This document shows positions 10,701 through 62,869 of a stretch of DNA of 64,000 bases, piece by piece (within the stretch, counting starts at the first letter, position 1; every line of letters begins with the position of its first letter). This stretch comes from Glutinoglossum americanum. Lineage: Eukaryota; Ascomycota; Geoglossomycetes; Geoglossales; Geoglossaceae. The translations under genes were made by a program, and so were the position numbers. The notes beneath the pieces were generated by a model, which was not told where the DNA came from, searched no databases, and worked only from the letters and a program-made list of their open reading frames with translations. Where the stretch lies: assembly GCA_020080175.1 (NCBI GenBank), contig JAGHQL010000006.1, forward strand, positions 186,001 to 250,000, written 5' to 3'.

Positions 10701-11501
10701 TTTCATAGTGGGGCTCGGTTGCACCTGTTGGCTGGATCTTGCCATCATTATATGCCTTCTCCGTGTGTTCGATGACGGCTGCGATCATTCCGGCGCTGGT
10801 TTTCACATGCCTCAGATCACAGAGCCTTTTGTTTGTATGGTCAGCGACTTTCCCAGCATGCGTCAAGGGACCCAAGCAGGGTCAGGGGGTTTGGTGGCGT
10901 ACCTTAGCTCCAGGTAATGGGAGCGCATAATGCACTTCCGAGAGTTCTTCCATGCAAGGCGCAGGCCGTGGAGAAGCTCTTCGGAATTCTGCGTCCAGGT
11001 GGCTGTTATTCCCGGGGTTTTCTTGCCGTTAATCCAGACGGTTCCTTGGACAGCGTCGGCGTCCAGCTTTTGGAGCACCTCTTCAAGCCGGTGGTTGTAC
11101 TGATCCTCGGTATAGACACCATCCTTCCACATCTCCCACAGAAATCCAGAAGCTTCAGCCTTGATTGTCTCAAGCGGACGGTTTTCTCCGTTACGTGGCT
11201 CATCTATATGGGTCGCACGCCCGGCTTGACAGAATTGGGGCGTGCATCCTGTGGAGGCCAGAACTTTGTTGTTTTGGAGAATGTTCGCGAACTCCTCTAT
11301 TGGCTTCGCAGCGATAGGGTCTTCTGGGCTATGCGAGATGCCACTCAGAAATGGACAGGCGGTCGAGGGCAAATTTGGGGCCGCTCCACTGTGGACACTA
11401 TTGAGGATGCCGTTAGACGTTGGCAGTTCTGAGGTCTTCTCATTGGTGACGCCTTTTATCGGCGGGCTGTAGTCGGCAGGCGGGTTGATCAGGATGGCCA
11501 T
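7742..11501 (-). CDS. Nitric oxide synthase, full length, seven exons
   Basis: Converts arginine to citrulline and NO. Exons: 11501-10903, 10825-10725, 10658-10582, 10506-10190, 10095-9921, 9850-9524, 9472-7742. This gives 1108 residues in frame, near iNOS length. The oxygenase domain has a zinc-type CxxxxC (Cys86, Cys91 in GCTPQFCQAGR), the heme-thiolate Cys190 in AWKNSRKCIMRSH, and the substrate loop GLKWYRFPA...PFVGWYMDAEIGVR with its conserved Glu. The reductase half starts near residue 560. It has an FMN site (YCSTGTTA, VSTTGTGDIPANG), an FAD motif (RPRSFSVAS), an NADPH site (ATGSGVAPLQSLLQYR) and YVCGSKAM near the end. The linker between halves is short, with a basic patch (RGGRKRG) but no clear calmodulin helix. 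The 51-bp intron 9473-9523 is a multiple of three and can be misread as coding. NOS-like genes are reported from some Pezizomycotina. The start ATG is followed by a disordered region as in animal NOS. Confidence 0.93.
10140..10183 (+). repeat. Imperfect trinucleotide run inside NOS intron
   Basis: A short run of CAG, GTA and related triplets lies within the 94-bp intron 10096-10189 of the NOS gene. Its pattern resembles the larger triplet array at 62465-62715 in the MULE element, but simple repeats of this kind also arise independently. Confidence 0.6.
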
Positions 11502-14447
11502 GATGGTCTCTAGCGTCGTTGGAAGTGGAATGTAGGATGCAGTGACTGCGAGGAAAGGAAGAGGGAACGAGGTGGTCTTTTATCGCCGGGGCTGTGCGGC
11601 CGAACGGGGTTGGCCCTAAGGCTTGGCAATAGTGCAAGTGTTAATACCACCCCACATGCCTACCCATCATTGCGGGGCAGCTTCCAGACTCCCTAGCTCG
11701 TAGCTGTACCATACCCGAAATCACCGCCACCATGTCACTCCCTGGTTGCTTTCGGGTGTGATAAGTTGGTGCATCTTGGGTACCTGGATTATCTTGGTGG
11801 CATTTGCAGCGGGACACTGCATGTGTGCTTCCACACCCCAATTCCAATGTAGATCTTATTGACGCCAGGCAGCAAGGCTTCGAAGGCGCCGGTGAGCGTT
11901 GCGCTCTCGTGACTCGCCATGCATGGTAGGCGTTTGACCGCAATCACGGGTGGCTTTGGGGCTTTGGGCCAGGATAAAGATTGTGAGAGTCTGTGCGTTG
12001 CCCCAGGAACTCGACGCCCCGGTCATTGCTCACGTGATGGCTATTGCTAAGCCGAATAGCGAGGAATAAGAATGTTTTTTTCCCGTCCCTGTAGATGAAA
12101 CAGGTTTCCCAATTCAGTTACACCCGATATGCCCGGCCGGTAAACAGTAGACTACGGGCCCGACAGCAAGGGCAATAGCAATGGCCAGAGCCGATTCTTA
12201 TTTTAGAGTCCCTTGGGATCGCCCTATCTGTGCGATCTGCCAACAATAACTGCCAGCAGCAAGGCTAAAAATTTGACACCTTATCTGACGTCCGCCTTTT
12301 CCCGAAGCGAGACTTGTTATCCTCACCTTGAAGTGCTACAACCGCTCGCTACGTAGTATCCCTATCTACTGAGCACCGTGTGTAAGGGCTAATATATTCT
12401 AACCACCGTGCGGGGCAAAGTGAGAGTTCTTCATCACCAGCCAAATCCCTCTCCACGAGGGAACCTCCAAAATTTGTATATTGCTGGTTTGGCACTCTTG
12501 GCCAGGCGTCACATTAATTGGACATCCGTCAGCTAGCAAAGACCACCCCTACATATTCCAGTTTGTCACCAATACGTGACAGCTAAAATGCCAATTTATG
12601 CTCACTCGAGCGGGCCAGCGGCGAAGATGGAAGCTAAGATACCCGGAGGGACCGCCCAGCGTTGCTCTTGGTCGTCTCAGAATTTCCTGACTTTCATGCT
12701 ACTGTCTCCCTGTATCACATAGCATGTTCGCGGGCGCCTGAGTCAAGATTATCAGATACACAACTTGTCTTTCATTTAGGATTTTCCGCGTGCCAAGAGC
12801 CACGGGGTTGTGGGCGAGGGAGTCCTCAAACCCCCCGGTGGTTTGGAAACGGAATTACCGTCCAGCAAGGCCACTGGCACGACCAATTTCCCACTATCTC
12901 TTCTTCCCCTACTAGCTCTTCTCCTCGTCGCCGTTGTCTCCACTAGTCCTCCGGATGATAGCAAAGCCCCTCCTACAACCTACCGTCGTCGAGGACACAA
13001 GCGCCCACTCCGCAGCTAGCAGGAGCGGTCCTTGGTGGAGGAGCGTTGTCGCGGTCGGCCACACAGTCGCCATCTAAGCTCTATGAACCGCAAAACAAAA
13101 CGCAGGCGTTGTCGAGCCCAAAGAACCACCGCAGACGTCTAGATCCATGAAGGAAGAAAGGGACGTGCGTGTGGACGTCGGTACGGAAGGCCGAGCGATT
13201 GTACGTATGCTCTATCTGCAGCCGGCGGCAGCATACTAGGCGGGAACACAATATCCGCCTCCATCCCTCGTCACAGCTACTACCGGTACTGGATAAACAA
13301 CCGCCCGGTCGTCCGGCGGTCTCAGCTGCTCCCTATCGTTATTCCATATTAAGTAAGTAGGGATAGGCATAGGATAAACTCGATAGCAGCATATCCACCT
13401 CGGTAGTTACGATCTCCACAGCCAGGTACACCTAATTAACTCTAGAACACCTTATCCCAAAATGGGAACCCTTAGCGAAACCGCCCTGCGACAGATTAAT
13501 TCGTTCAGCTCCACATGCGACCTCGCTCTCCTCCAGCGCACCTGCCGTTCCACCTGCTCCAGCCCATCTCCCCAGAATCTAAATCGGACACCACCGGAAA
13601 TTAATGAACGCATGGCAATCTCCCCCCGAGAAAGGGGAGCGAACCATCGGTTATTCGCCACAGGCTCTCCTCGCCTCTCGCTCGTCTGCCTCGCACGTGG
13701 CGTCGGAGGAACCAACCCGCCGAGTTGCTGACCGGACGCTGCAGGCGAAGGGCCGTTCTTGGCGCGTCGTGGGCGGACGACTGGACGATTGCCGAATCCC
13801 CCCGATGCGGTCGTACCCCATCCACTTCCAGCCCATTCGCTCCCTCAAAATGAAACAATCACCCTATCTATTTACGAGAGTCGGGGCACTCAGCTCGAAA
13901 ATCGTCGGGGAGCCAATCCCGCCGAGGAACGCACCTGAATTTTGCCCTTTTTCCGTTTTTTAATTTTCTTGGCAGGGCGCGCGAGGGGCCTCCTGCTCGC
14001 CGCGGAACGTTCTTTTCTTCGAAGACGCCTCTGGGCGTTTCTAGGCTCGTGGAGGATCCTGCCCCCCCCTGAGCTGAAGGCCGTTGCGCGAAAAGCGTGA
14101 GAGCGAGTCGTGTGGCGGTCCGCGTTCCTGAGTTATTGTCTAGATCGGTCTATGCCCGACTTGGCGCATTTGACGGCTGATGCCAAGGGATCGTGTGAAG
14201 CCAATCCCGTGAGGCTCTTTCGTTCGTTCCATTTCTAGGACCGTTGGGGTTAATTTCACGATCCGTCATGTGGGTTGCGATGGCCTGTCGGTTTGTCCAA
14301 GATGCGCAAACAGGATCCAGCTGCGAAGGTCTCCTGAGCGGAGGAGGCAGATTGCGCATGACGTGAGAATAACCAAATTTGGAAGAGATGACCCCTTTGG
14401 CCTTATTCTCAGGATATTTCCTGTGTCCTTCACTGGCCGAACTAGAA
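11502..14447. other. Long gene-free stretch
   Basis: About 2.9 kb upstream of NOS with only short ORFs on both strands that lack domains, splice continuity or signal peptides. The part around 13450-13960 is more GC-rich and carries overlapping ORFs on both strands, typical of chance ORFs. I see no tRNA and no terminal repeats. Confidence 0.4.
11577..11584 (-). promoter_or_regulatory. TATA-like box of NOS gene
   Basis: GATAAAAG on the minus strand, about 80 bp upstream of the NOS start codon, is the only TATA-like word in the proximal region. The assignment is by position only. Confidence 0.35.
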
Positions 14448-20935: not shown

Positions 20936-21275
20936 TTGCGGCAAAATCGGTAGAGGTGAGGTCAGCCTTGCGGCTGAGAGCAGGTTGCGATGCGGATGGA
21001 AAAACCGCTTAAGCGGAGTAACCTAGAGAACGGCATACGGTAAGCCGTCACGAGGCGAGCCTATCGACAATACTAAATAATCAATTGCCATTTTGCGGAA
21101 AGAATACTGAGACGCCCTATCATAGTAGTTTTATGCATCTGTGGTTAATTATGCTGCAGCCCGACACTTGTTACTCACGTGACGATATTTGACGAGGCTT
21201 CACATGAGGCTTAATATGGGGCTATGGGTGAGGCTTACATCTTTCTGTGCCTCATAGGTAGGCCGCATAGGAAGG
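20936..21275. other. Intergenic region
   Basis: Divergent spacer between the DUF6601-like gene and the 2EXR-like gene. No additional feature was seen apart from the TATA box listed next. Confidence 0.4.
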
Positions 21276-21281
21276 TATAAA
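21276..21281 (+). promoter_or_regulatory. TATA box of two-unit 2EXR-like gene
   Basis: TATAAA 50 bp upstream of the start codon at 21331, in the context GGTATAAACCCCACCC. The 2EXR-like gene at 47242 also has a TATAAA at a similar distance. Confidence 0.5.
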
Positions 21282-21330
21282 CCCCACCCTCGGAACTTTT
21301 AAACGCTATTACCCCCAGATTTTCGCAGAT

Positions 21331-22848
21331 ATGAGAGCCAGGATGGCTATGAGTGGAGTATTAGCGATGCGTTCCGGCTGCACCCGCCAAGACAACGACG
21401 TATACATTGATGAGGGGTTTCGCCCCGCCCCAGGCCCGTCGGCGATGATAGAACCGATCGGGTATTGCAACTCCCCTCTCTACACTCCAAGCCGGGTGGG
21501 GCTTCTAGATATGCCCCCGGAGGTCCGTAGGAAGATCTATGGCTATCTTCTTCACTGCCGTTCTCTAGTATACTATGGTGGCTCTGGCACTTACAAGAAA
21601 TGGCTGCGACCGTTTCCACTGCTTCTGCTGTCCCGCCGTATCAACAGCGAAGCGGCGGAGGTTCTATATGGGACAAACACGTTCCACCTTGAGAGGAATA
21701 TTAAGGTATTTATCAATAAGATCGGCAAAGCAAACACGGACTTCCTTCGGTCAATCAAGCTTCACTGGGACCGCCCGGACTTGTTCGGCCGGGTGGTAAG
21801 GCAGCTTTCGCCACTGCGACTACGTCTTCGTAAAGTCACCATTACCGTCCCAGAGAGTATGGCGCATTACGTTGTATGCCTTGCACATATGGCCTACAAA
21901 TTTGGATTTGCACATACGGCTGAGCTGACGTTCAGAATGGTTGACAAAACCAGCGACTTCCAAATAGACGTCGCTGCATGGCTTGCAGACAAGGGCCGTT
22001 CGATTTTGGTATGGCATATTCTCTCCCATAAGGCACCGTATCTGACCACCTTTCCATAGCATTTGAGCGACTGCAAGGGTTGCTGCGGCATCCGCAGCTG
22101 GCCAGAATATCGTGCGGGTCCGTCGTTGAACAGGGGCCTCGGTTTTCTTTCATTGCCCTTGGAAATCCGTAACATCATTTATGAGGAATTCTTAGCCTTG
22201 CCTCACCCTATCTGGGTCGAAGAGCATTGGGGTACCCCCCAGCGGCGGTCTTGGAATCCTCGCCGCGGCCCCTGGCAAGGGCTAAGTCTCCTTCTCGTTA
22301 GCCGGCAGGTCAATCTCGAGGCCACCACAATCCTATACGGTAGAAACAACATTACACTATTTCACCAAGATCCGAGCCTCTTCTTCGATCAAATCGGCAC
22401 CACTAATATGTTCTCACTCCGCACCCTCGAGTTCAACTACAACATTCGGCTTAGGGACTACATCTCCCCTCTCCGGACAGCTCTTCGGCGCATCGCGCTC
22501 CTTCCTAACCTCCAACAAGTGCGACTCCGCCTTGCGCACAGAGGGGTGCCCCATCTGCACCGCATCGCCGCGAGTGCACGTGAACTGCGCGATGCGAAGA
22601 GAGCAGGAGGCTTCACGATTATGACGGGAGCTTGCGACTTCTGCCCCTGCCCGGGGGACGAGGACATTACGTGGATAATCGATAGGGAAGCGCCGTGGGG
22701 ATGGGATTACGATCACAGCATCTGGTGTCCTTTCGAGGAAATCATGACGTGGAAGCTCATCAATGAACGCGGGGGCCATGAACCTAGGCTGGATAATCAC
22801 GGGTGGCACTGCTTTAGGCCCTGTGAGTTCCTAGCTACCATAGGTTAG
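21331..22848 (+). CDS. Two-unit 2EXR/F-box-like protein
   Basis: Two homologous ORFs follow each other. The first (to 22059) has the family hallmark LLDMPPEVRRKIYGYLL and later INSEAAEVLYGTNTF. The second has FLSLPLEIRNIIYEEFLALP and VNLEATTILYGRNNITLF. The second lacks an ATG before the middle of its domain. A 51-bp intron (22009-22059) with donor GTATGG, branch CTGAC and acceptor CATAG removes the first stop. It joins the frames exactly in phase 0, giving 488 residues in exons 21331-22008 and 22060-22848. I therefore read one gene with two tandem units. Such proteins are a large, rapidly duplicating family in Pezizomycotina, often annotated F-box or 2EXR; the substrate is unknown. The alternative is an intact first gene followed by a start-less pseudogene. 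Confidence 0.7.
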
Positions 22849-44669: not shown

Positions 44670-47157
44670 CACGCAGCGGGCCCGCCCACCACTTCCACCA
44701 GTCCTCTCAGTCGGGAAGAACGGCGTTGCGGTTATTCCACTTATTTTCTTTCCCCTTCTATTCTCTCCATGTCCCCTTCACGAAACCCCAAAAAAGAAAA
44801 AAAAAACCAAAGCTTCACGCAGCGCAGTGCATCAAAGACAGGCAGGCGTATGGCGAAAACAGCACGCGCGCGCCTCGGCTCTGGGGGGCGTGTGCGCGGT
44901 GATAGTGCCTGGAGAGAAAAAACTACCCGTGCGAAGGGGAAGAAGGGGAAAAAAAATGTTGGGTTGCGTTTGTTACACGCCCGCTCTGTTGCATTTTCCT
45001 TTCGCTTTCCTTTTCTTCGTTCCCCCCGGGGCAACCCCATTCGGTGGTAGTCCCGAATTCTCTTTTTTTTTTCTTTTTCCCGCCTCTCGGTCAATCTTTC
45101 GATCGATCAGATTCCAGGAAAGCATCATCATTGGGGGTTTTTTGGAAATTATTGTTTTTTTTTTTTATCTGTTTATCTGTTCGCTCGTTCCGTTTGTTAA
45201 CCCCCATCCCCTTTTCTTTTTGGGTTTTTTTTTGGATCCCGGGCCTAAAGTAGCTACTGCTGAAAAATCAAAACCTATTTATAGACGCGTTGTGGTGTGG
45301 TCGTCTATGGGTCGTGTATATGGGCTGGTTTTGCGTGCGCGCGGTGGTGGTCTAGTGCCGGTGCTGTTTTTTTTTTTCGCTCTGTCGTTGGTTCTTGGTG
45401 CGATGGTATACGGCTTTTCAGGAAATTCGGTTCGTGCGACTAACCGGCCTGCTGACTTCTTTCTTGGGCTTTGGTCTGCTTTAACTGTCTCGGGGTATTC
45501 AGTTTTTAAAATGCGAGAATTTTATGCTGAGATGAACTAACTCAAATAGATGGGATATTCTACATTCAACCCGGCTGCCCCTTCGTGTACAACCTTGCGC
45601 AGGAGCCTAACAAGAGTGGGGGACACTGCTTCGGCCCAGATAGGAACACCCGTTATAACCTGGCTCTTCCCAGGGATGGTGCCCCGGCGATGAGCGATCT
45701 TGGTTATGGGGTGTGTGGTCCGCGGGGCCGGCTTTATTAAGCTGAGGGTGAGATGGCAGGTCTCGCGGCGGGATCAAGTTTAGGGAGCTTGATATTAGGT
45801 AATGTTAGCAGAGGGCCGCCTACTTGCTAACCCTTGGATATCTTGGTTCAGTGTGTGATCCCTGTAGTTGGCTTGTCAGGTTAACGCTAAGCCGGTTTCC
45901 CGATTTATTGCTCCCTGTAGGTGCGTAGATAAGGTCATGTAGATAGCCGCTGTGTAGGGGAAGAGAAGGTCCTGCAACGCTTGCTCTAGCCACACAAGAT
46001 TTACCCAGGAGTCCAGGACGCAGAGGCATCGCTAAGTGGCCTCAGCGAGCGACGAAGGGCCCCGTCTCTCTCAATACCACTCTTAAGCGAATCCAACCCG
46101 ATATCTAGATATTCCTAACTGGATAGTAGGTGTTAAAGTAGAGTACAAATCACCCGGATCAATTCTGAGAAAATTAAAAATGCGTGTTAAAGATACCCTA
46201 GAGTCGCGGCTAGTACTATGCGTGGCATGCGTGGTCGGGTACCCAAGCCGTTTTGGGGTGGAGTGGCCGGTTTGGTCATGTAAGTGTGTGGACGGAGTAC
46301 ATGTAGCAGGACACGCCCCACACTATAGCAAGCTATGCGGGCAAAATGTAGCATATGCCAACACCGCAAAATGAGAATTACAGACTGGCTTGTGGACTGT
46401 GGGCGGCTGCGTCTTCCTTGCATATAGTGTCCGGCTCCTCCGGCTCCTCCGGCTCCCAACACTCGAGAAAGATCGCTCATGGGCAAGCCGGAAATCGCTG
46501 GTGGTCCAAACCAGACCAGAAATAAGCAAGCAGATAACCCGCCCTACGCCATATCTATTCTCCACTACAGACTCTCCGGTAATTGCCCCACCCGGATGAG
46601 TATCTAGCTAACCAACTTAGCTGTAATCGACCTATGACGTAATCGATCCCAAATCTCAAATCAACCGTACCCACTTTATAAACCATACCTACTTTAGAAA
46701 GCGTACCCACCTTGGAAACCATACTCGCCTAGTTACCCAACGAATCCCCGGCGCCTGGGATGTTTTCCCAGTTCGGATGAACCCGGGTGTGGGCCTGAGC
46801 TAATATAGAAGACCCACCCGCCTATTAGCCTGTCGTTTCCCTTCTAATTACTCCCTCAACCCGCTCCCTCTTGCCTCGTTTAGCATGGATAGCCTCGCTT
46901 CTACCCATATGGTTCGGATAAATGCCTTGGCGTTGACCGCTGAGCAGCTGGCGTCGCATGCTCATCCGTTTAGGGTGGAATACCCGAATTTAATGCTGGT
47001 AGAGCCCCTGCAGAGCCATATTGTCTAGCGTCTCGCTCCCGCTATACACAGATTGGCTGTAATAGGCGCTTGCGACCCGGGAAATGCTCCTAGAAAGGAC
47101 CAAGGGTGCCTTTTCCCCTCACTCTTCGGCTGCTCTGAGGCCTGTGTTCGCATGGGG
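44670..47157. other. 3' region with homopolymer tracts, then gene-free DNA
   Basis: From 44750 to 45240 there are many A and T tracts of 8-11 bases, consistent with the 3' untranslated and downstream region of the preceding gene. The long ORF crossing it is not credible. A three-copy CCGGCTCCT run lies at about 46431-46457 and an 18-bp tandem repeat at 46666-46737. No gene was recognised. Confidence 0.4.
46666..46737 (+). repeat. Four-copy 18-bp tandem repeat
   Basis: Units start at 46666, 46684, 46702 and 46720 and follow the pattern (C)(G/A)TAC(C/T)(C/T)(A/G)C(T/C)T(T/A)...AA(C/G). The first three are well conserved; the fourth is diverged. Confidence 0.75.
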
Positions 47158-47163
47158 TATAAA
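47158..47163 (+). promoter_or_regulatory. TATA box of 2EXR-like gene
   Basis: TATAAA 79 bp upstream of the ATG at 47242. It places the transcription start inside the upstream in-frame extension, so it argues for the 47242 start rather than 47053. Confidence 0.5.
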
Positions 47164-47241
47164 TCCTTCCCTCTAGTCTTCTTTTCCGGACGCTTCCTGC
47201 TTCTTGTTCTCTACGCATCCTTAATCCCCGGCTCAAACACA

Positions 47242-48165
47242 ATGACCGCACAGCCCCCAAGACAGACCACCGCCTCGGTCTTCGACAAGCAACGCCTATC
47301 GGTAACAACGGCTCCGTCGATACTTTTTAAACTCCCCCGCGAAGTCCGCGACGAGATATACTGCCATGTGCTTGGCCTTCCCACATTTACCAGTCCGCGT
47401 GGTCGTACAATCTGCCATGTCATCTGGTCCGGCAAAAACATAATATCCCGCTTCTCCCCGGGGGACCGCCACCCCGAGTGTGACAACGAAACGGAGGTAT
47501 GCACTGAGATCCTTCGCACCTGCCGAACCGTGTCTGAAGAATGTCTGTCTTTGCTTTACTCCCGTATGGCATTTAGCTTCTTGCCCATGAGCCAAGATTT
47601 CATGTGGGGCGAGCTCTTGTGGTTCCTTGACATGATCGGGGAAAAAAATCGCCAGTGTCTGGGAGAGATTAGTGTGGAAGCACCTTGGGTGGCGCCACTG
47701 GTAGAAAGCCCATATACCAGAAAACCCACACTAGAAGGTATATCGTGGTTGCGAATAAACCCAGATAAGCACATAGAGTGGGATAAAGCGCTGGGATGGG
47801 AGGCGAGCCCCATGGCAGAGGTCGCGTCGAAGCGCCTCGCTGGACTGACGCCTGGACTCCGCAAATTCGAATTAGTGGCGACAGCCGAGCTGATTGACAT
47901 GTTGTGGGAGGAGGAGGGATCCGAAGCAGCGAACAAGGCTCAGTTCGAGGCTCTAGAGAAGGTTGCGGAGGCGTTCCGTGGGACGGCCGTCGAAGTGACC
48001 TTTAATATCGAGCAGCTCTCCTGCCCCAAGGTTGATCCCGTTATCCAGAGGATAGTTAAGAAATTCGGCTGGAAGACAATCAATCAACGTGAGTACGCGC
48101 CACTATTGGATGAAAATGAAGAGGATAAGTGGGTTGTTTCTATCCCAGATAACTCGTGGTGGTAG
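47242..48165 (+). CDS. 2EXR/F-box-like protein
   Basis: The frame is open from 47053, but I choose the ATG at 47242 (context ACACAATGA), giving 307 residues, because a TATA box lies at 47158 and the extra residues are unlike the family. The N-terminal hallmark is ILFKLPREVRDEIYCHVLGL, followed by the second helix SEECLSLLYSRMAFSF. A mid region LTPGLRKFELVATAELIDML precedes a C-terminal alpha/beta-like segment (FEALEKVAEAFRGTAVEVTF, then KKFGWKT). The same C-terminal pattern appears in the partial gene at the right window edge, so the two are paralogs about 16 kb apart. Function unknown. No introns are visible. Confidence 0.75.
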   Translation: MTAQPPRQTTASVFDKQRLSVTTAPSILFKLPREVRDEIYCHVLGLPTFTSPRGRTICHVIWSGKNIISRFSPGDRHPECDNETEVCTEILRTCRTVSEECLSLLYSRMAFSFLPMSQDFMWGELLWFLDMIGEKNRQCLGEISVEAPWVAPLVESPYTRKPTLEGISWLRINPDKHIEWDKALGWEASPMAEVASKRLAGLTPGLRKFELVATAELIDMLWEEEGSEAANKAQFEALEKVAEAFRGTAVEVTFNIEQLSCPKVDPVIQRIVKKFGWKTINQREYAPLLDENEEDKWVVSIPDNSWW

Positions 48166-49618: not shown

Positions 49619-51608
49619 CTATATTGACTCGAAGTTCCGCAGTGCTTTCTCGAGCGGGCGGACGACCTCACTATATACCGCATCCCTAAACTCATGATCC
49701 TCCAGGTTCGTGCTCCTTGGCCCAAACGCGCAAAAGATACATCTTCTAATAGCGTTGTCGTATTCGGGCCCACCCTCTCCAAGGGCTTGTTCATACCATT
49801 TCGACGCGGTGGCGAAGTCCGTGTTATCGTTGGGCTTGCCGTCGGGACCAAGATAGTTCTTCCGGATAGGTTGCTCCTCGAGCGCTTGGCCGAAGCAGAG
49901 TTCGAGAAGCAGGATCCCGAGCGCCTGGATGCTTTTGCGGCATGAGTTGTGAGTCGGAGTGTCTCGTGTCATGGTGGACGTAGCGTCTCGAGACACGTAG
50001 GGTCGCTCGAATATGACGGGCCCTGAGGAGCCCTCATTAGCCCGTAGGAATAATATGTCCCTTTTGCTCCACCTCTCGCTGAGCCAGGGAGTCGTGTGGA
50101 GCAGTAGTAAAGAAGACGCTAGTGTCACCGCGACGGCTAATCTCTCTAGCCTAGAGAGCGCCATGCGCTCTCCCGTATCTGAGAGCCCACTGGCATTGCC
50201 GTGTCGCAATAGCAGGCTTTCTAAGCTCACCAATTCCCAAGAATCAAGAACCTCCCGCGATTCTTTAACCTGGGCGAATGTGAATCGCCGATTCTGGCTG
50301 TCTGACAGGAATCCAAGATGTGGTTTCCCCATCTGGGCCTCTTGGATGGTTGAGCAGAGGTCGACGATCTCGGCCATTCCGGGAGTCTTGTGGTTCGGAG
50401 GCTGTCCTTTTTGTGGCATCGAAACCGTGCACGTCTCCTGCGAAAAGCTGACCTTTTTTTTGTTGGATTTGATAGCCAGGCTGCCGTAGTGTTAGCTGAC
50501 GGCGAGAATCTTCTGTTGAATTACAGCCTTGGCTAGGAGCGACATATACCTCATAGTAGTGCTTGTCAATGAGGATGACCTAGAGCTTTCCGAAACCTCC
50601 GTCAATACAACTTGAGATCTGAAGTCATGCTTGGGGTTAGTAATAAACCCCGCCGTTGGGGGTGGTTGAAACGTTGACTGCGTCTTTGGAAGATCTGAGT
50701 CGACTTCCACCACACTGATCTCCAACTCATGCCAGTCCCACGGCCTCGGCTGGGGTTGGGCCGGATTCACCTCATAGCAGAACAGAACCTTGAACGCGGA
50801 ATATGGCAAATCGGTGCCTCCTAGATCGGTCCCGGGATCTGTGGCGGTTCGCTTCTCCAACAGCAGGTTTGCCCCATGTGACAGCTGACAGCTACACCGC
50901 CACCCCGACGTGAGAACGGCATGTAAGTCACGGGCGTGCTCCCGAGCACGCTGAAAGGACATGGTGGGCGGGGACTTTCGGTAACGCCGGGAGGGTGCCA
51001 GTTCGTCGCTTGACTGCAAAAGCTTCCGGAGCTCCTCGTTGTGCCGGTCCAGTGCCTTCGCCAGCTTCTCTCTCTTCTTCTTCGAGAGTGTGAATTTGAT
51101 TCGACGGAACTCGTATTCCCACCTCACCCTACTCAGGGCGCTTGTTTCGTTGTCGGCCCATCCGGTCTAGATGCCGACGATTGTTAGGATATGACTGAGG
51201 GAAAGGTGGCCAACTACACACCTCTCCATCTTTAACTCCCAGCTTGTTTTTCAGTTTCTCCATATCAGTTATCATACTATTAACGGTGTTCATGTACCAG
51301 TCGTAAGACTTTGGCAACCTATCTCTAAGCTTGTCCTCGAGGCCTGGTTTGCTCCATGATTGCCCTCCAGGATCCTTCAGTAGATCATTCATTTCGGCAT
51401 CGGATTCAATTATATCTGCCAGAAGTCTCTCAAGGTTCTCATCGAACCTTATAGACTGAAAACCGATGGCGTGGACGAAACCCATATACTCCGTGCGGAA
51501 GCCCCACCAGTCCTTTAGAGCCTCGAAACCTTCTTGGTAGTGCTCTAAAGCAGATAGGACCAGCGGGAATGTTGCAAGGACAAACCCAGCCGCTTCGACT
51601 CCGCTCAT
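49619..51608 (-). CDS. DUF7580-like protein with N-terminal HeLo-like region
   Basis: Exons 51608-51222, 51166-50550 and 50480-49619 give 621 residues in frame, with 55- and 69-bp introns (donors GTGTGT and GTATAT; CTAAC branch sites). The N-terminus MSGVEAAGFVLATFPLVLSA, then HYQEGFEALKDWWGFRTEY, is typical of a fungal helical domain that opens many DUF7580 and NLR-associated proteins. A charged coiled segment follows (LSKKKREKLAKALDRHNEEL). The C-terminal part (LERLAVAVTLASSLLLLHTT, KRDILFLR, SIQALGILLLELCFGQ, YDNAIRRCIFCAFGP) resembles the helical half of a protein kinase without catalytic residues, as in DUF7580. Relatives are linked to heterokaryon incompatibility and prion-like signalling; a role here is inferred. 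It is divergent from the fusion gene at 51873, 264 bp away. Confidence 0.78.
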
Positions 51609-51799
51609 GACGATAAAAACTGACAGAATGTATTTTCATCCGACGTCGGTGCGGACACTTGGTGGAGCGAAACGGCTATGGGGGAGGAAGCCGGTCGCTG
51701 AAGGCAAAATGTTTCGCTTTTTCTAAATGAGGGGTAAAAGTGGGGTAAGATAGCAAATCTATGGCATTGCGCCAAGAATCTTCTAACTTCCCCGCACAC

Positions 51800-51845
51800 A
51801 ACCATCACCATCACCAACCATCACCATCACAATCATCACCATAGC
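51800..51845 (+). repeat. CATCAC microsatellite in divergent promoter
   Basis: An imperfect run of ACCATC/CATCAC words in the 264-bp gap between two divergent genes, ending about 28 bp before the start codon of the fusion gene. Confidence 0.8.
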
Positions 51846-51872
51846 CGTTACATTCACTTCTGGGAATTCAAG

Positions 51873-54800
51873 ATGGCGTCTAAGCCCGCGGCTATTGCCT
51901 TAGAAGCAAACCTTTGTAGGGAATCCTTTTATCACCTCTGCTCTTTACTAACGGAACCGGAATGTGTATTTATCGACCAGATATCCCACTCTGCTGTGAT
52001 GGACGAACTCGGACGGTTCGGGGTCTGGGTGGGGAATATTGGGGCCCTCCAGGATGGCCCGAGCTCCCTTGACTATCGGTTAAGGGAGGCTTCTCATATC
52101 CGTCAAATGGTACTAAAACTCCTTGGGGATCTAAACGATACGCTTCAAGAGGGTCAGTAGACAATTTGTCAGTGTTTCACATTGGGACTCTATCTGATAG
52201 TGTCATAGCGATATCGATCGTTTCGTGTAAGCGGCCTCAAAAGGATTTTCAACCCCCAGACGATGAATTCGCTTCCGAATTTTCTGGCGATGGAAGCTCG
52301 ACAGATTCGGACGCCCAAGACCCCTCGAACGACTTGATGCCAACAACGGAGATCCAGCAGCTCTTCCTAGCCATTGTTGAAACTATCACTAGCCTTTTAA
52401 AGCTATCAATTACGATCCGTAACCCTGCGCCGCGAGATAGACATGCCAAGTCCGCATCTTTTAGTCCTTACGACGACCGCTATGATATCGGCCATGTTTG
52501 GCAGAAATTCCCCCATGCACGCAAATCCTCATGGCTTATAGATCGCCTGGGCAAGGCGAACTCCCGGCGCCGCCTCTATCTCCGATACCGTGAAAAGCAC
52601 CGTGAGAAGCTATCGAAGGAGCCCAAATCTCTAGGGAATGCGAAGATAGGGGCCAAAACCGAGGTCGTTCAAGGCGACGGAGCAGACCGTCTTACGCAGA
52701 GACAGTCCAGCCGTGAGGCCAAAAGTCGTGCTACAAACCCAACCGCAACAACCACTCTTGTCCAGACAATAGCCTCGTCGCTATATAACCCAGATAAAGT
52801 GGAAGAAAACTCTGATGCAGATCAGTCAGTTACTTCCTACGCAACCTCCATCGGTGAGGGCGATAATACCACTATCCGCGTACCTCCGCCGCCGGAAGCC
52901 TCCGCAGATGAAATGCCGTTTGAGTGTCCCTACTGCTTCACCATCCAGACATTGAAAGGAACTCATTCTTGGAAGTAAGGATAATCCGCGCTCTCAAATC
53001 CCATGTGGTGTTAACATTTCATTTTCAGGAAACATGTGTTTAACGATCTCGAGCCATACATTTGTACCTTCAAGGATTGTTCTTTAAGGACTTTTCCAAC
53101 CCGGCGTTCTTGGTTCGATCACGAACTCCAAGCCCACCGGAGGGATTGGTGTTGCAGCATCTGTGAAACCCGCTTCCATTCTGCTGGGGCCTTTGAGAAC
53201 CACATGAGGCAACTACATTCTGCGTCATTTGTGGAATCTCAGCTATCAGCCATTATTAGTCTGGGCGAAACACCTGTTGATAAGATCCTCGCCACCGATT
53301 GTCCTTTTTGCGATGACTGGGATACCGTCCTGAAGGGGCGGATGGCCCTTACCGACCCGGAAATCTCCACTGAAAGACTTGTCGTCACGCCTGAGCAGTT
53401 TCGTAGACACGTCGGACGGCATATGGAGCAGCTTGCTCTGTTTGTGCTGCCTAGGAATTACTACGATGACGAAGGGATGGACTTCGGCTCAGATGCGGTC
53501 GCAGTTCACGATAATTCAGATAGCACTAATGTTGATAGGAGAATTTACCAAGTGGTTATGGGTGGAGATGAAACGGTACTAGCCCAACTACTCGACACTG
53601 GGACTGATGCCGAAGCAGCGCTCCTTCTAGCCGCTTTGAATGGACGAAATACGGTAGTAAAGCTGCTAATTCAGATGGGCGTCTACCCAGATGCGAAGTC
53701 AAGCAGCGGGGAAACTGCGTTGTACAATGCGGCAGCCATGGGACATGTCGAGGTTGTCCGTGACTTGGCCGGGTACGGAGCCTATATTGACGCAAGGGAT
53801 AACGATGGCGTGACAGCGCTACAGGCAGCGGCCGCTAGAGGGCACTACTCAGTTGTGGAATTACTAGTTAACGAGCTTGGGGCAAACGTCACCAACAGGG
53901 ACAATGATGGGCGGACCGTACTGCACTGGGCAGCGGTACATGGGTTGGCATCATTAGCTGATTTCCTATCGAGATTTGGACTGGAAGGCATGAGAGATGA
54001 CAGCGGCCAGACAGCGCTACATGTGGCAGCCTCAAGCGGGTGTGAAGACTTTTTACGGGTGATCGCCAAAGCTGGACCTGTACTTGAATCACGAGATATT
54101 CATGGCCTGAAAGCGTTGCATTTTGCAGCCAGAAGCGGCAGCACAAAGTCCCTAGAAGTATTAATCAAGGCTGGGGCGGAAGATTTCCGAGGTAACACAG
54201 CGCTACTCTTAGCAGCGGGCAGCGGGCATCTGGATGCAGTGCGTCTGCTCATCGAGGCGGGGGCGGAACCCAAATTTAAAGCACTGTCCGAAGCCGCGCA
54301 GAACGGGCACGAACAAGTAGTGTGTCTACTTCTCGACAAGGGGGTCCTACCTGACCCGAAACCTCACTCTGGACTCACGTACCGGCCCCCCGCGCCGCTA
54401 GCTGAGGCAGCAGGAAACGGGCATCTAGAAGTAGTGCGTCTACTTCTCAAAGCAGGGGCCGATGCTGAACTGAGGTCTTCCAACGGACGCAAAGCACTCC
54501 ACGAAGCTGCAGCAAACGGGCACCATGAAGTAGCACGTCTGCTGATCGAATCAAAAGCCGATATCAACTCAAGAAATACACTTGGACTTGCACCCGTGCC
54601 GCTGGCTGAGGCTGCAAAAAACGGTCATTTAGAGGTAGTGCGTCTCTTTATCGAAAAAGGGGCCAGCCTTGAGCTAGACGATTCCAATGGATGCACAGCG
54701 CTCTACGAAGCGGCGGCGAATGGCCACTTAGAAGTAGTGCGCCTACTTCTCGAATCGGGAGCCCATCCCAATCCGAGAGATGCCTCTGGGCGCGCGTCCT

Positions 54801-57280
54801 TGCCGCTATTCGTAGCGGCGAAAAACGGTCACCTAGGAGTAGTGCGTCTGCTTGCTGAGGTAGGGGTCGACCTCGAACTGAAGGCTCCCAATGCACATAC
54901 TGCATTGCATGAAGCTGGAATAAACGGACATGTACAGGTAGTGCGTCTGCTTCTCAAAATGAGGGCCAAATTCGACTCGGAAGCACTGTACGAAACTGCG
55001 TCGATTGGGCGCCTTGATGTGGTGAGCCTACTTAGAGAGGCGGGAGCAGATATCGGCGTTGATGCGGCGGCTGTAATTGCTGAGTTGGATGAGCAAGGAG
55101 TGGTAGGCAGCCTGGCGACATCCCCCCCACCGCCCCCTTCCCAGGAACCCCATCTCCAATGTAAATACTGCGATTATATCCCAAAGCCTCACCCCGATTA
55201 CAACTACCGCGTATCTAATCTCCGCCTTCACGAGCGTACCTTACACCGCCAATCCTACGAGCAGACAATCCCTTCTAAAATCCTAGATTCGAACGAACAA
55301 TCTCGCCCTGAGACGACGACTATTGCTAAGGAGCTCACTTTCGCAGAGGTTTCGGTCCACAATAAGAGGGGCGATTTATATATTGTGATTCACGACCAGG
55401 TCTACGATGTCTCAAGTTTTGCGGATATCCACCCGTACGTTAAAATTTCCCTTCTATTCCGGTTGTGAGCGGAACTTTACCCCGTGTGGGCAGCTTCTAT
55501 TACGGCCGTACTGCCCGCCCCCGCTTATCGGTCTTTTACTCTCCCAGAAAAATAGAATTTAGAGGGCGTGCCTTTTCTTCCCTACCGCTTTTTCACAGAT
55601 TGGGTCATGTTCCGAGGCTCGGTATGCTGATTTCTAGGGATGTTTACGAATGCCCAGTGGCGGTGTTAATGCCCTCCTTGATATGGGCGGAAAGGACGCT
55701 ACCAAGGCTTTTGAGGGTGTCGGACATTCCCCTGAGGCACGAGAGATACTCGCGGGTCTATTCGTTGCAAAGTTGGAGCAAAAGGTGAGATATGGAAAAT
55801 AGTACTTCCTTACAGCAACTTATACACCCCCCAATCTAACCATCCTACACATTCCAAACTGCTAGCCCAAGCACCGCTAACCCTCCTCTCCCCCGCCATA
55901 GATTAGTGACTTAGCACCCATAGCTGCCACCCCGAGGAGTGAAGAGAATGACTGGGCAGATTGGACTACATCTTTCTATGATCACGTTCCGCGTCATTTG
56001 GTCCCGGATTTGGTGCTTACACTCCGACGCGATAGCCCTATTAATGCCATAAAGTTTAGTCCCAATGGCAAGCTCGTAGCTATTGGGTCCAGCGCCTCGG
56101 CTCAGATATTTGATGCCAAGACGGGTGAAGAAGTCATGCAAATGAGAGATGGCACTGACGGTGGAGTTCACAGAGAGGTTATCTTCGCAGTATGTTTTAG
56201 CCCTGATGGCGAGTACCTTGCGGCTGGCGGGCGAGATGGGACTACTAGAGTAAGTGATCTCAACATTGACGGCCTGTCAACGCTCTTCCCAACTATAGTG
56301 GCCTTCATCCATTCGCTGATATTTTTGTTTGCTACTCCCCATGTTGTAAACTCCAACTAATAGCTGGCCCAATGCAGGTATGGGATACCGAAACGGGGGC
56401 CCTCAAATACCAATTCCATCACCGCCAAGTAAGCGTACTGTGTCTGGACTACGCTAGCAATGGCCGTTATATTGCCTCAGGCTGTGCTACTAATGTAGTT
56501 CTAGTGTGGGACACTGAGACTGGGCTACTAGATAAAATTATGCCCGAACCTTCACCTGCGGGCAGTTACATACTAGCTGTCGCGATATCCCCAGATTGTG
56601 GTTACATCGCTGGAGGCTCGTTCAGTGGAGCCATTACCCTGTGGAAGAGAGCTACAGGCGACCGTTTTGCACGGGTTGAGGGCCATACTGGACCCGTTAG
56701 CTCAATCTCATTCCTACAGAAAGGCAGTTTACAGCTTATCAGCGGAGGCTGGGACGGCAAAATAAGAGCCTGGGAGCTAATTTCCCAAGGGGGTGAGCCC
56801 GATCAGCTGCCCTTACTTGGGGCGCCTCTTCGAACGTTCGAATGGTCAGTAATGGGCCAGCCATCCCGTGTGCGAGGCTTTGCTGTGGCCCCAGATGGTC
56901 GATGGGTATTCAATGGTTTGGACAACGGTTCGCTGCAATTCTGGGACTTCATAACCGCCGACACCCACGGGTTGTTCGTTCACAAGCACCCTGAGAGTAA
57001 AGCCCTCCGCTTTCGTTCGTAGTTCATGGCGCAAACCTATTTGATCAATATCGGCAGGCTGACCCTAGCTTCTGACCCCCTAGCCCCTGATACTCTCGCA
57101 ATTGCAGCTAGTCCGACTGGTCAACTTTTCGCTATAGCTTCCGGGCGTAAAGCGACAATCTTTAGGTCTGCGCTCCCCAAACCGCAACTCCAGTGTTACC
57201 CACCAGAGCTTCTGCTGACGCGTACTGTCCCAAAATCCAGCTACAGCTCCGAAGAGCCTCCAAAAGGCGAGCTACGATGA
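51873..57280 (+). CDS. Zinc finger-ankyrin-cytochrome b5-WD40 fusion protein
   Basis: Exons 51873-52152, 52209-52974, 53029-55434, 55658-55784, 55902-56249, 56378-56996 and 57069-57280 keep frame throughout (1585 residues). Residues 1-350 are a helical region common to fungal zinc-finger/ankyrin proteins. C2H2 fingers lie at about 361-480 (CTFKDC...HELQAH, CSICETRF...HMRQLH, CPFC...HVGRH). About 15 ankyrin repeats follow (520-1035; ALHEAAANGHHEVARLLIES). A CKYC...HERTLH segment is near 1060. Cytochrome b5 (1116-1193) has both heme ligands: IHPGG, restored by splicing, and VGHSPEAREIL. A Tup1-like seven-bladed WD40 closes the protein (VPDLVLTLRRDSPINAIKFS, SASAQIFDAKTGEEV, RTFEWSVMGQPSRV). The last intron (72 bp) removes a TAG at 57020 and completes blade 7 (SPTGQLFAIASGRKATIF); its branch site is weak, so an end at 57022 is possible. 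Function unknown; the architecture suggests a heme-sensing regulator. Confidence 0.82.
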
Positions 57281-58588
57281 CAGATCATCGAGCAGAGATC
57301 CCCAGCCACACACGCTAACTAGATACACATTTCTAGTTGGTTTAGTTGTATGAGATGGGTTCTAGTTGATCGGTGGAACTCATATTGCTACGGGCAGGAC
57401 GGAATAGCTTTTTAGACGGTCTTCCAGAAGTAAGTTTGGAATAGATGATTAGCCTTGCCAAACCGGGTAACAGCTCAACCGCCACTGAAGCTCTCAGCGT
57501 CAGCACTGGTCCCCACTCGTCATGCGCACTCACTCCAGGATGGTCTTCTACACAAGGACGAAACAGCCGCGCCGGCGGGCAAGTCAGGAGACACCTGACT
57601 AGCCGGACGATGTGGCCAATGGTCTAGCCCGTCTAGCCCAAAGATTCTAAGTTGGACTGGAGCCATGAAATGGAAGGTTTGACTAAACTGGACCCAATCT
57701 AGTCGCCTACCCTTCGATCTTTATTGGAAGTAATTGGAACGGTGGAGGCAATGTAGCATAGAATTTAACTAATTGACTTAATGGAATGCTCGATTGATAG
57801 CGAACAAAGTAGGATAACTAGCTAGCTATATAGACAAAGAGGAAACGGCCCCATGGTCCGGCCGCATGCCCGAAGTTCAAAACAGGAATAGAAGTTCTAT
57901 TCTAGCAGCTCGTTTCTATTGCTAATGGATACCAGGTGCTGTAGTGAAACGCACTGCAGGAACCCGCAACGGGGACTAAGGAGATTATCTAACAAAAACA
58001 CGTTTGCACGCAAATATCGCCTAAGGGAACGACAAGAAAACACCCACTACATAGGCTAACACTACTATAAGCAAGGCCAAGCGATGCTGTAGCAATTAAA
58101 TTCAGTCTATTCGTTAGTTCCATGCAAGCTACTCCTAACACAAATTGCCGTTCACGCAGAAGCTCCCACCTCACGCACTACGAGGACGGCTAGTCTACGC
58201 ATGGACTATCAGTTTCAGCCTCCATGTAGTCCAGAGCATTTGAATAATTTATGCTAACAGCTCAACATCGATACTATTAAAATGGCAGGGGTTGCGAGTG
58301 GGATAAGCGGGCCAAGCACGCGGCGAGGGCAAAGAGGCACCCTAACTCGACCAAGCTGGCGAGGCTGCCATGACCTGTATTGAGGATATGGCTGCAGAGA
58401 AGACAGCGAGTATAACGACTAAGATACCAGGCTGAGGGAGCGAGATCATTAATTAATGTTATCGCGCGGGCAGTATACCACCGAACCACGCCCAGACGAA
58501 CTTAAGAAGGTAGTATACCAGAGGGGGCGATAGCTGTTAGTAGTTAGGCTGATGCAGAGGCCAGGAAAGTAGTAGTGCATATATAGAA
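57281..58588. other. Gene-free flank of the MULE element
   Basis: No gene was recognised between the fusion gene and the transposon. The left target-site duplication of the MULE lies at 58580-58588. Confidence 0.45.
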
Positions 58589-58869
58589 GGGTTATTTACC
58601 GAAATACCCTCATTTTCAATTTTAATTACTCGGCTACCCCAAAAATTTAACAAATTACTGAAATACCCTATTGTAAGTCATGTGATGGCCACCAAAGCTC
58701 GCGTCCAGCTGCGCGTTTTCGCGGCCACAAGCTTTTGTGACCACAGCCTCTTACCCAGCTACTTAGCTACTTATATAGTTATAGTTACTTATATAACTGT
58801 CCACCTAGCTGCCTATGTAGCTGCCCACTTAACTGTCTGCACAACTGTCTACTTAGCTGCCTATATATA

Positions 58870-58920
58870 AGAACTCTCAATGTCAAGGCGACCCGAAGGC
58901 ATTTTGACATTAAGAGCTCT
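58870..58920 (+). repeat. Hairpin-forming inverted repeat
   Basis: AGAACTCTCAATGTCAA (58870-58886) pairs with TTGACATTAAGAGCTCT (58904-58920) at 15 of 17 positions around a 17-base loop, inside the left arm of the MULE. It may be a subterminal protein-binding site or a remnant of a tiny nested element. Confidence 0.6.
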
Positions 58921-59818
58921 AATGAAGTTTGGTAACAGTGTGACATTGCACCTTGCAGTGATAATGCTGGCTAGCCATCTGGTCTACGTGTAGATAAGAC
59001 TTAGGTATATAAAGACTAATAGATTGACTTAATGGTTCTAAAATAACTATACATTGGTCCGACTTAGAATATATGGCAGATGGGATAGACTCAATTTTAA
59101 TAAGCTGGAAATATAAAAGACTGATAGCTGACCTCCAAGCAGGAGGCCAGTGAATTATATATATATATATAATAGGGAATACAAACTTTCCATATTGATT
59201 TCGGAAAGTATACTTCTGGAATCCTTATCACTATGTAGATAAAATGTTGCGGACATTATGTGAGTTAGTTACCTGACCGCAGAGGCTCAATGGCCACTAC
59301 CAAGTAACTGACCACAGGTCATGATATTATACAACTGCTCATATAGTTGCTCACGTAACTACTTATTGAACTACTACTTAACTACTTATATAGCTACTTA
59401 TTTAACTGTTCTACTTAACTATCAATAGCATTTCGACAACTTCTGCAATTATGCCCTTGTATACCACAATAATTACAAACATTTCACTGTTTGTCTACCT
59501 TGTCCTTATACCTATACTGCTACTCTTTAGACTGTCTATGAAGCTTGGCTATAATCAAAGCCTTGATATTATTAAACTCTTCTACTAGATCTTCCTCCCG
59601 TATCAGATACATATGTAAAGTATATGTATTAGAATGATATTTTATAGAATATTATTCATGGATATAGTTATAGGGATCATAATTCCACCAGAGACAAACA
59701 GTTACAGCATGTTAGTATAATATAAGAAACTTTTGGAACTTGCTACAAGAACATTTTCTGTCAACTAAATTGACAATATGTGATGTACCATTTGATACAA
59801 ATACTTGTGCAAGACCAT

Positions 59819-60501
59819 TGTGATGGTTGCTTATATAAGCTAGGCTGTGAAGGTCGGGTGCTGCAGGCATTAAGACCGAGCTAGCCCTAAAGGGCTAGTT
59901 ATAACAGAGTAAGGGAGGCCAACTGTGTGGTATGACAGGAGGATAGGCCTAATGGTCCTTAATAGTCTATCTAACGTGATTATGGTATTAACCAATGAGG
60001 TTTCCTTCTAGACCCTCTTTAGCTTTTTATATATACTAATAGCCCTAAAGGGCCTACAGGTAGGGACCTGCCCGGTTCTCTTTATGGACACATATGGACC
60101 CCTTGCCTACGACTGTACTTCTATTGGGAAGTTCTTATGATACTTATGTAGTTTCTTATGATACTTATGTAGTTTTCTCATCACTGGCCATGCCTTTCGC
60201 TGCCGCCTATGCTCCTATATAGAGTTTCTATAATACCCGTATGGTTTCTTCACTAATAGCCATGTTCCTATGTGGAGTTCTTATAATGTTTGTGCAGTTT
60301 CTTCACCAGCCATGCTCCCATATAGAGTTCCTATAATGACGTCATTGGTGGGACCTTGTAGGCCCCCTTCGTGTATCACCGGCTTAATGTATTACATTTG
60401 GGGTAGTCCCCCCTATATTCCACCAGTCTTCCTTAAGACTAGCCCTCCTTCTTAGCCTGTTTAGTGGTCTACCGAGCCCTTACCTGGTGGCCACCATAAC
60501 A
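59819..60501 (+). mobile_element. Solo LTR of an LTR retrotransposon, copy 1
   Basis: Runs from TGTGATGG to CCATAACA (TG...CA ends), 683 bp. It matches the second copy at 61149-61810 in opposite orientation over its full length, at roughly 80% identity by eye. The flanking five bases are ACCAT and ATCAT, a near-perfect target duplication. There is no internal coding region. Superfamily is not determinable from an LTR alone. It is younger than the MULE it interrupts. Confidence 0.8.
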
Positions 60502-61148
60502 ATCATCTCTTGATAATTTGACATGGTAATAACATGCTTACTGATAGCTATTATCTAGTTTAGCTACAGCAAAGTCAGTAACTCTTAAGAACTGATGGTT
60601 TCTAAAATAGCATTGGTATATTATTAACATAATACTAGTTTAAATTGCAACTAGTAGTCCTATAATAGGAAGATTGCGATATTTGTTTCAGAATGAATTC
60701 AATGATTCAGCAATATTAGAGGTAATATGCCCAAAACACGATGCTGGAAATACACATTGTACTCAAGATTCCTTCAGAATAGTTACCAGATACTCATAAG
60801 CTTATGTATTAAAAGCTTTAAGTTTATTTATTGCTATACTAAAGTTATGCTTATTTGCTGCATATACAATCTTCCAAAATGCTGTTTGACATACCAAACT
60901 AAAATGCTTTTGAATATTGTCTCTGAGGTGTTGACAGCAGTGAGAATGATATGACTCAGGAAAGGTGTTGGTAACTGCAGCATGTAATTCATTATCTCGA
61001 TCACTGATAAAAACTATTTCTATTCAGTCTATACCTACAAAGTAATCTTTAATACTTTGTAAGAACTAGAGCTAATTATCACTATCTTCAATTGGAACAA
61101 TAGCCTAAACTAATGGAAAGATCTCATTGTTTCTATCAAGTATGCATG

Positions 61149-61810
61149 TGTTATGGTAGCTACTGGGTAAGGGCCCAGTGGGCCACCAAACAAGCTGAGA
61201 AGGAGAGCTAGCCCTGAGGAAGGCTGGCAGAGCATAGAGAAGACCACCCTATACATAATACACTAAGCCGGTGACATACGAGAGGGGCCTACAAGGCCCC
61301 ACCAATGATGTTATCATAGGAACTTCATATGGGAGTACAGCTGATGAAGGAACTGTACGAACATCATAGAAACTCTACATGAGAGCATGGCCGGTAACGA
61401 AGAAACTGCACCGGCATCATAGGAACTTTACATAGAAGTATGGGCAGCAGCGGAAGGCATGGCTGGTGGTGAGGGAACCACATGAGCATTATAAGGACTT
61501 CCCAATAGAAGTATGGCCAGAGGCAAGGGGTCTGTACGCGTCCATAGAGAGAACCAGGCAGGTTCCTACCTGTAGGCCTCTCAAGGTCATTAGTATATAT
61601 AGAAGGCTAAGGAGAGTCTAGAAGAGAACCTCATTGGTCAATACTATAATCACATTAGATAAACTATTAAAGACTATTAGGCTTACCCTCCTCTTGTGCC
61701 ACACAGCCGGCCTCCCTTGCTTCATCGTAACTAGCTTTTTAGAGCTAGCTCGGCTTCGATGCCTGTAGCACTCAACCTTTGCGATCCAGCTTATATAAGC
61801 AGCCGTCACA
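61149..61810 (-). mobile_element. Solo LTR of the same family, copy 2
   Basis: A 662-bp element with TGT...ACA ends, read on the minus strand from TGTGACGG to CCATAACA. It is flanked by a perfect 5-bp target-site duplication, GCATG, at 61144-61148 and 61811-61815. It interrupts the MULE transposase just before its first catalytic aspartate. No internal region remains, so it arose by LTR-LTR recombination. Confidence 0.88.
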
Positions 61811-62464
61811 GCATGCTGTAAAAAGTATCATTCGAAAGCAAGACTTTGTATAATATTCATTTAATGCAACAAATGGATAGTAGGATTTGAATGCAACTTA
61901 GGTTGCTGCAGGAATAATAAGACATCACTGAAAACACTCTCCATTTGTATTAATATAAACATAGTTGTACTTTTGATTTGTCGTAAGGAGATCGACTAGT
62001 CCTAGTAATTGTTTGAAGTATTTTACTTCATTGACTTTCAACTCTTATCTAATTGCCTCTTGAGTTTACCATGCCTGTTAATAGCTAACATGAGTATTTC
62101 TATAAAGAATCCATTTAGTACTCTATATCTGTTTTGGTAGTATCTCTCTATTGTCAACTACAGCTGTACAATGATGAGAAGCAAGAAAAGTAACAGAATG
62201 TGCTTGACTAAAATTCTGATACACGATTGGACTACAGAAATAAGGAACATAATATGTAATATAATAGATAAGACCTTTAAGTAAAGTAATATGAATACTA
62301 AAGTAACAGAACTCATTATGGCAAGTTAGAACATAACGCTTACAATTAGACTGATAGACACGATAGGATTCTTCTTAATTAATAATATAAGAGCGAATAG
62401 TATTACAAGTTATACCTAATAAGGAAAAGTTAGAAGTAAGAGGTGTTGGAATAGATTGTAAAGA

Positions 62465-62715
62465 TGTCATAATAGTAATAGTAATAAGAGTAGTAGCGAC
62501 AGCAGTGACAGTAGTAACAGTAGTAGTAATAGAGGTAGTAGTAACAGTAGCAATAGTAGTGACAGCAGTAGTGATGGAGGCAGCAGTGACAGTAGTAGTG
62601 ATAGAAGCAGCAGCAATAGCAGTAACAGCAGTGGCAGCAGTAGTAACAGAAGTAGTAACAACAGTGGCAACAGCAGCAACAGCAGCAGTGATGGAGGCAG
62701 TAGCATCAGCAGTAG
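62465..62715 (+). repeat. Imperfect trinucleotide array (GTA/CAG/GTG)
   Basis: About 250 bp of mixed GTA, ACA/GCA and GTG triplets directly inside the right terminal repeat of the MULE. On the minus strand it can be read as a Thr/Ala/Val/Ile run, but this is simple-repeat coding and not a gene. Confidence 0.85.
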
Positions 62716-62869
62716 TGATGGTGGCCGCGAAAACGCGTGGCTGGACGCGAGCTTTCGTGGCCATCACATGACTTACAATAGGGTATTTCAGTAATTTGTT
62801 AAATTTTTGGGGTAGCCGAGTAATTAAAATTGAAAATGAGGGTATTTCGGTAAATAACCCTATATAGAA

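Follow-up and report, generated by a model that had tools for sequence, protein, structure and literature searches.

A predicted Glutinoglossum americanum gene that probably joins C2H2-like motifs and ankyrin repeats to a cytochrome b5 domain and a Tup1-like WD40 propeller

Our analysis of a 64,000-nucleotide (nt) stretch of the genome of the fungus Glutinoglossum americanum (GenBank assembly GCA_020080175.1, contig JAGHQL010000006.1, forward-strand positions 186,001 to 250,000; hereafter, the window) indicates that positions 51873-57280 very probably hold one gene, having a C2H2-like, ankyrin, cytochrome b5 (b5), and Tup1-like WD40 architecture. The spliced translation comprises 7 exons joined across 6 GT-AG introns, has 1585 residues, and contains no internal stop codon; the coding sequence totals 4758 bases and ends with a stop codon at 57278-57280. 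Each of the 7 exons has a coding-like GC pattern across codon positions, with position 1 the highest. Intron size and the gene families present point to a fungal source. The gene had been proposed in an original prediction, which placed it correctly and had the number of introns and the order of domains right; its description of the introns as six short ones holds for their number, but not for the length of the third, which has 223 nt. The elements of the gene are as follows:

51873-57280 (+): whole gene, from start codon to stop codon
51873-52152, 52209-52974, 53029-55434, and 55658-55784 (+): exons 1-4, from the spliced translation
55902-56249, 56378-56996, and 57069-57280 (+): exons 5-7, from the spliced translation
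52153-52208 (+): intron 1, 56 nt, GTCAGT...ATAG
52975-53028 (+): intron 2, 54 nt, GTAAGG...CAG, interrupting the first C2H2-like motif
55435-55657 (+): intron 3, 223 nt, GTACGT...CAG, within the b5 domain, between the HP and the GG of its HPGG motif
55785-55901 (+): intron 4, 117 nt, GTGAGA...ATAG, at the junction of b5 and propeller
56250-56377 (+): intron 5, 128 nt, GTAAGT...CAG, within blade 2
56997-57068 (+): intron 6, 72 nt, GTAAAG...CTAG, with the weakest donor of the six
51873-52151 (+): N-terminal segment, residues 1-93, no Pfam match
52925-53422 (+): four C2H2-like motifs, residues 333-480, identified by eye from Cys/His spacing and mostly irregular
53531-55060 (+): 16 ankyrin repeats, residues 517-1026, counted by eye; Pfam Ank_2, E = 2.5e-86
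55160-55246 (+): fifth C2H2-like motif, residues 1060-1088, after the ankyrin array, identified by eye from Cys/His spacing
55334-55781 (+): cytochrome b5 domain, residues 1118-1192, split by intron 3; Pfam Cyt-b5, E = 5.9e-21, and PDB cytochrome b5 matches
55959-56030 (+): Tup1-type lead segment before blade 1, residues 1213-1236; PDB match, query 10-68
56031-57169 (+): seven WD40 blades, residues 1237-1549, with boundaries set by eye; Pfam and PDB matches

The cytochrome b5 domain is matched over its full length and retains both axial histidines. Specifically, Cyt-b5 (PF00173) aligns to residues 1119-1190 over model positions 1-73 of 74, with a score of 74.7 bits against a cut-off of 23.7, and comparison with PDB cytochromes b5 yields 52 distinct sequences at E ≤ 0.001, the best at 5.5e-18. 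Alignment to cytochrome b5 structures places one axial histidine in HPGG and the other in VGHS, which lies in exon 4; we take these two histidines to be the heme ligands. Joining exons 3 and 4 restores the HPGG motif, in agreement with the proposal that splicing regains it. With both axial histidines in place, heme binding is plausible, and these ligand residues predict that the protein probably binds heme. The full-length match and both heme histidines are common to the fusion protein and to cytochromes b5 such as 3ozz and 2ibj; the b5 domain of the fusion protein differs from these in sitting between the ankyrin/C2H2-like and WD40 parts. Free cytochrome b5 carries a membrane tail, and in the fusion protein the propeller stands at that place.

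The ankyrin array and the b5 domain are continuous. One frame of 817 codons, 53015-55468, is open all the way from the first C2H2-like motif to the HP of b5, ankyrin array included, and its last in-frame Met codon before b5 is at 54959, within that array. The ankyrin-b5 link requires no splicing, because this frame holds the array together with the fifth C2H2-like motif and b5's first half; the joining of exon 3 to exon 4 is set by homology, because intron 3 separates HP from GG. Eight ankyrin-core DNA copies are 60-78% identical to a reference copy. The zinc fingers of the original prediction are identified here as C2H2-like by the spacing of their Cys/His pairs, and fall below the Pfam cut-off: the best score in residues 1-525 is 15.1 bits, for zf-C2H2_4, against 27. 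The Pfam scan of the whole protein matched 49 families at E ≤ 0.1, of which the best 25 are the results considered here, and an NCBIfam scan gave a single match, under its cut-off.

The C-terminal part forms a predicted propeller for which the label Tup1-like is fair, within the limits set by what is probably a sparse representation of fungal WD40 proteins in the PDB. The WD40 score in Pfam is 113.5 bits. Seven blades, as previously described, can be identified by eye, but Pfam alone passes three WD40 stretches on their own; a canonical WD repeat, RVWDTETG, reappears once intron 5 is spliced out, and blade 7 is restored only on removal of intron 6, which has the least regular donor, GTAAAG. 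Among the five PDB matches listed, the top single-stretch score, 100.9 bits, with the next at 86.6, belongs to chain 5afu_3, which is labelled DYNEIN TAIL but which, over the stretch that matches, has the sequence of yeast Tup1 in 1erj minus missing loops; this match supports the Tup1-like label given earlier. When whole chains are scored, 5afu_3 is outranked by three repetitive WD40 chains, the first being 2ymu at 173 bits. The best colinear match among those listed is yeast Tup1, with 69 of 218 residues identical (31.7%). The lead segment alone matches 1erj (E = 1.2e-7) and 5afu_3 (E = 7e-8) in one stretch, query 10-68, and in the best 60 of the 275 matches of this search the best stretches of all other sequences begin at residue 28 or later.

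These features raise the question of whether the protein is a heme- or redox-responsive transcriptional regulator, with zinc fingers that bind DNA and a Tup1-like propeller that recruits repression machinery in a heme-dependent manner. C2H2-like motifs, a b5 domain with both heme ligands, and Tup1 as the best colinear propeller match are consistent with such a regulator, but the C2H2-like motifs are mostly irregular and fall under the Pfam cut-off, and we consider the regulator improbable. In particular, Tup_N, which we take to be the Pfam name for the N-terminal domain of Tup1, through which Tup1 oligomerises and binds Ssn6, had no match in residues 1-525 or approximately 1020-1236, each scanned apart, or, for the ankyrin stretch, which only the whole-protein scan covered, among the best 25 of the 49 families. 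In addition, the top-face R1 residues shared with yeast Tup1 number 0 of 7, with one differing in each blade (blades 1-5 placed from the PDB alignment and blades 6-7 by eye, following the rule given in the available portion of PMC3419727). In Schizosaccharomyces japonicus Tup11, five of the seven R1 residues are needed for binding of the iron regulator Fep1, and Cys337 and Thr467 have little effect, according to the same portion of that paper (PMC3419727). Because none of the seven R1 residues matches, the Tup1-type partner surface is not conserved, and this, together with the lack of Tup_N where scanned apart, leaves classical corepressor action unsupported. Membership as a Tup1 corepressor was rejected on the same grounds. 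The fusion protein thus has in common with Tup1, Tup11, and Tup12 (1erj) a WD40 propeller of seven blades and the lead segment before it, but differs from them in these two respects and in the ankyrin and b5 parts that precede the propeller.

An alternative role put forward in the original prediction, that of an allorecognition (nonself-recognition) receptor in the style of fungal NLRs, here with a divergently transcribed partner gene, is unlikely. The repeat types of fungal NLRs include ankyrin and WD repeats (PMC4986451, available portion), and modular shuffling is common to these receptors and to the fusion protein; 57 NLRs of Sordariales have zinc fingers (PMC12258605, available portion), and the divergent group of open reading frames (ORFs) upstream of the fusion gene carries a DUF7580 match. 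However, unlike fungal NLRs of the HET-E/HNWD type, the fusion protein has no NACHT or NB-ARC match in residues 1-525 or among the best 25 of the 49 whole-protein families, and its repeats are not internally homogenised. The available portion of PMC4986451 defines high internal conservation of NLR repeats as >85% identity over 100 residues; in ungapped self-comparison, stretches of that length reach at best 63% in the ankyrin repeats and 18% in the WD repeats. The latter comparison is weak negative evidence, because most NLR repeats also fall short, with only 10% of ankyrin and 21.6% of WD repeats reaching >85% (PMC4986451, same portion). A search by name in open-licence papers found no DUF7580 literature.

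A further alternative is that the region holds two adjacent genes, one with C2H2 and ankyrin parts that ends near 55468 or has b5 as its tail, and the other for the Tup1-like WD40 propeller by itself. We strongly infer, from splicing, that b5 and propeller are joined by removal of intron 4 (55785-55901). Several points weigh against a single gene: the intron on which the b5-propeller junction depends is predicted from the DNA sequence; splice patterns by themselves permit many other joins; if intron 3 were retained, the frame would stop at 55468 and b5 would be broken; and, among 103 one-intron models in which an ATG at 55435-56000 reaches the propeller frame, two (ATGs 55650 and 55683) use intron 55785-55901 itself and would yield a propeller with the second half of b5. 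Specifically, with donors at 55300-55468 and introns of up to 300 nt, 1218 two-intron GT-AG models lead without a stop from the frame of exon 3 into that of the propeller, 13 of them keeping HPGG and GHS, and a further 25 one-intron models do so by skipping exon 4. With so many joins open, splice patterns alone prove little, and the argument that a frame restored by splicing is hence correct was set aside as weak on its own; it is the complete b5 domain and the Tup1-type lead that single out the proposed model. The fusion of b5 and propeller is favoured because no ATG at 55435-56000 opens the propeller frame without an intron (0 intronless models). Moreover, only 4 of the 103 models start between 55784 and 55902, all at ATG 55792, and these require a first exon of 10 nt and the non-consensus donor GTACTT. 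For the remaining 99, the starts lie within intron 3 (55607-55650) or the b5 exon (55669 and 55683), so that such a gene would overlap a complete b5 domain that is already accounted for. Two adjacent genes are therefore, in our judgment, quite unlikely, and the stop-free frame, the complete b5 domain, and the WD40 match support the proposal of a one-gene domain fusion, with the link from b5 to propeller taken from splicing.

That the locus is a decaying or misassembled chimera without function is very improbable: the inverted repeats downstream, at 58588-62861, mean that the neighbourhood is not repeat-free, but the 4758 coding bases are free of stops, b5 is complete, seven blades are present, and every exon has coding-like composition.

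The explanation that we favour for the fusion gene is domain shuffling, in which a b5 module and a Tup1-related propeller would have been added at the C-terminus of a C2H2-like/ankyrin scaffold. We give about an even chance to the view that this is a domain-shuffled fungal gene for a heme-containing scaffold, rather than for a classical Tup1 corepressor. In such a scaffold, the ankyrin array would bind a partner protein, the b5 module would hold heme by its two histidines, and the occupancy or redox state of the heme could alter what binds the propeller, or electrons could pass to the propeller's binding partner. Heme-dependent control of partner binding is a guess and a doubtful one. It is improbable that the protein represents a new class of fungal heme sensor, a heme-gated scaffold with b5 placed between an ankyrin array and a Tup1-derived propeller. 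In sum, the architecture first proposed stands and its heme binding is plausible, whereas the corepressor and allorecognition roles are not supported.

The domain combination is unusual. Proteins with C2H2 and ankyrin domains are numerous in Pezizomycotina, and domain shuffling among them is frequent, which lowers the surprise. The N-terminal segment, C2H2-like block, and ankyrin array of the fusion protein presumably resemble those proteins, and it differs from them by its b5 and Tup1-like C-terminus; we know of no described C2H2-ankyrin protein with such a C-terminus. Viral and prokaryotic scans revealed no relative of the architecture. In particular, viral contigs scanned with the b5-WD40 part gave no pattern match, and those scanned with the N-terminal part gave three stretches that matched a pattern, none of which was confirmed; a scan of genome contigs matched 42 stretches, which yielded 3 loci, all in prokaryotic metagenome-assembled genomes, with 24-27% identity to the WD40 part, which we take to be generic WD40 matches. 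A tblastn search of the fusion protein against the rest of the window, with 51801-57400 masked, returned nothing at E 1e-3. No description of the fusion architecture was found in the open-licence literature, among the matches listed, in line with the statement in the original prediction that no described protein with this order of domains was known to its author. The term 'cytochrome' was not found in PMC9815663 or in the available portions of PMC12258605 and PMC4986451.

The fusion gene is flanked upstream by the divergent ORF group, 49619-51635 (-), which contains three ORFs, one with DUF7580 (E = 2.4e-30) and two with no Pfam match, and whose first ATG, at 51608, lies 264 base pairs from the fusion gene's start codon. 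Downstream, 58588-62861 is bounded by 141-nt inverted repeats that are 98% complementary and 3992 nt apart; a second repeat pair, 59819-60153 and 61476-61810 (335 nt, 80%), lies inside the first, and a simple-repeat array, 62469-62725, adjoins them. The repeats at 58588-62861 are possibly a transposable element. Elsewhere in the window are a nitric-oxide-synthase-like gene, 7742-11579 (-), with two ORFs that match NO_synthase at 28.5 and 26.7 bits against a cut-off of 22.7, the first of which also matches Flavodoxin_1 (57.5 bits) and NAD_binding_1 (24.5 against 22); an ORF of the animal haem peroxidase family, 1587-3488 (+), with an An_peroxidase match at E = 1.1e-113 and presumably of the fatty-acid oxygenase type; three ORFs at 21271-22848 and 47029-48165 (+) with DUF7730 above the cut-off, two of them in tandem; and a short ORF with TPR_12/TPR_10 repeats, 4239-4715 (+), possibly part of a larger gene. 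ARAGORN identified no transfer RNA.

If the gene is transcribed as drawn, it would couple a b5 module for electron transfer or heme sensing to a protein-recognition array and a propeller of the corepressor type. On the same condition, it would make heme-linked control of protein assembly open to test in a fungus and would show the reach of domain shuffling among ankyrin proteins; as a lineage-specific shuffle, it would be a curiosity of protein evolution.

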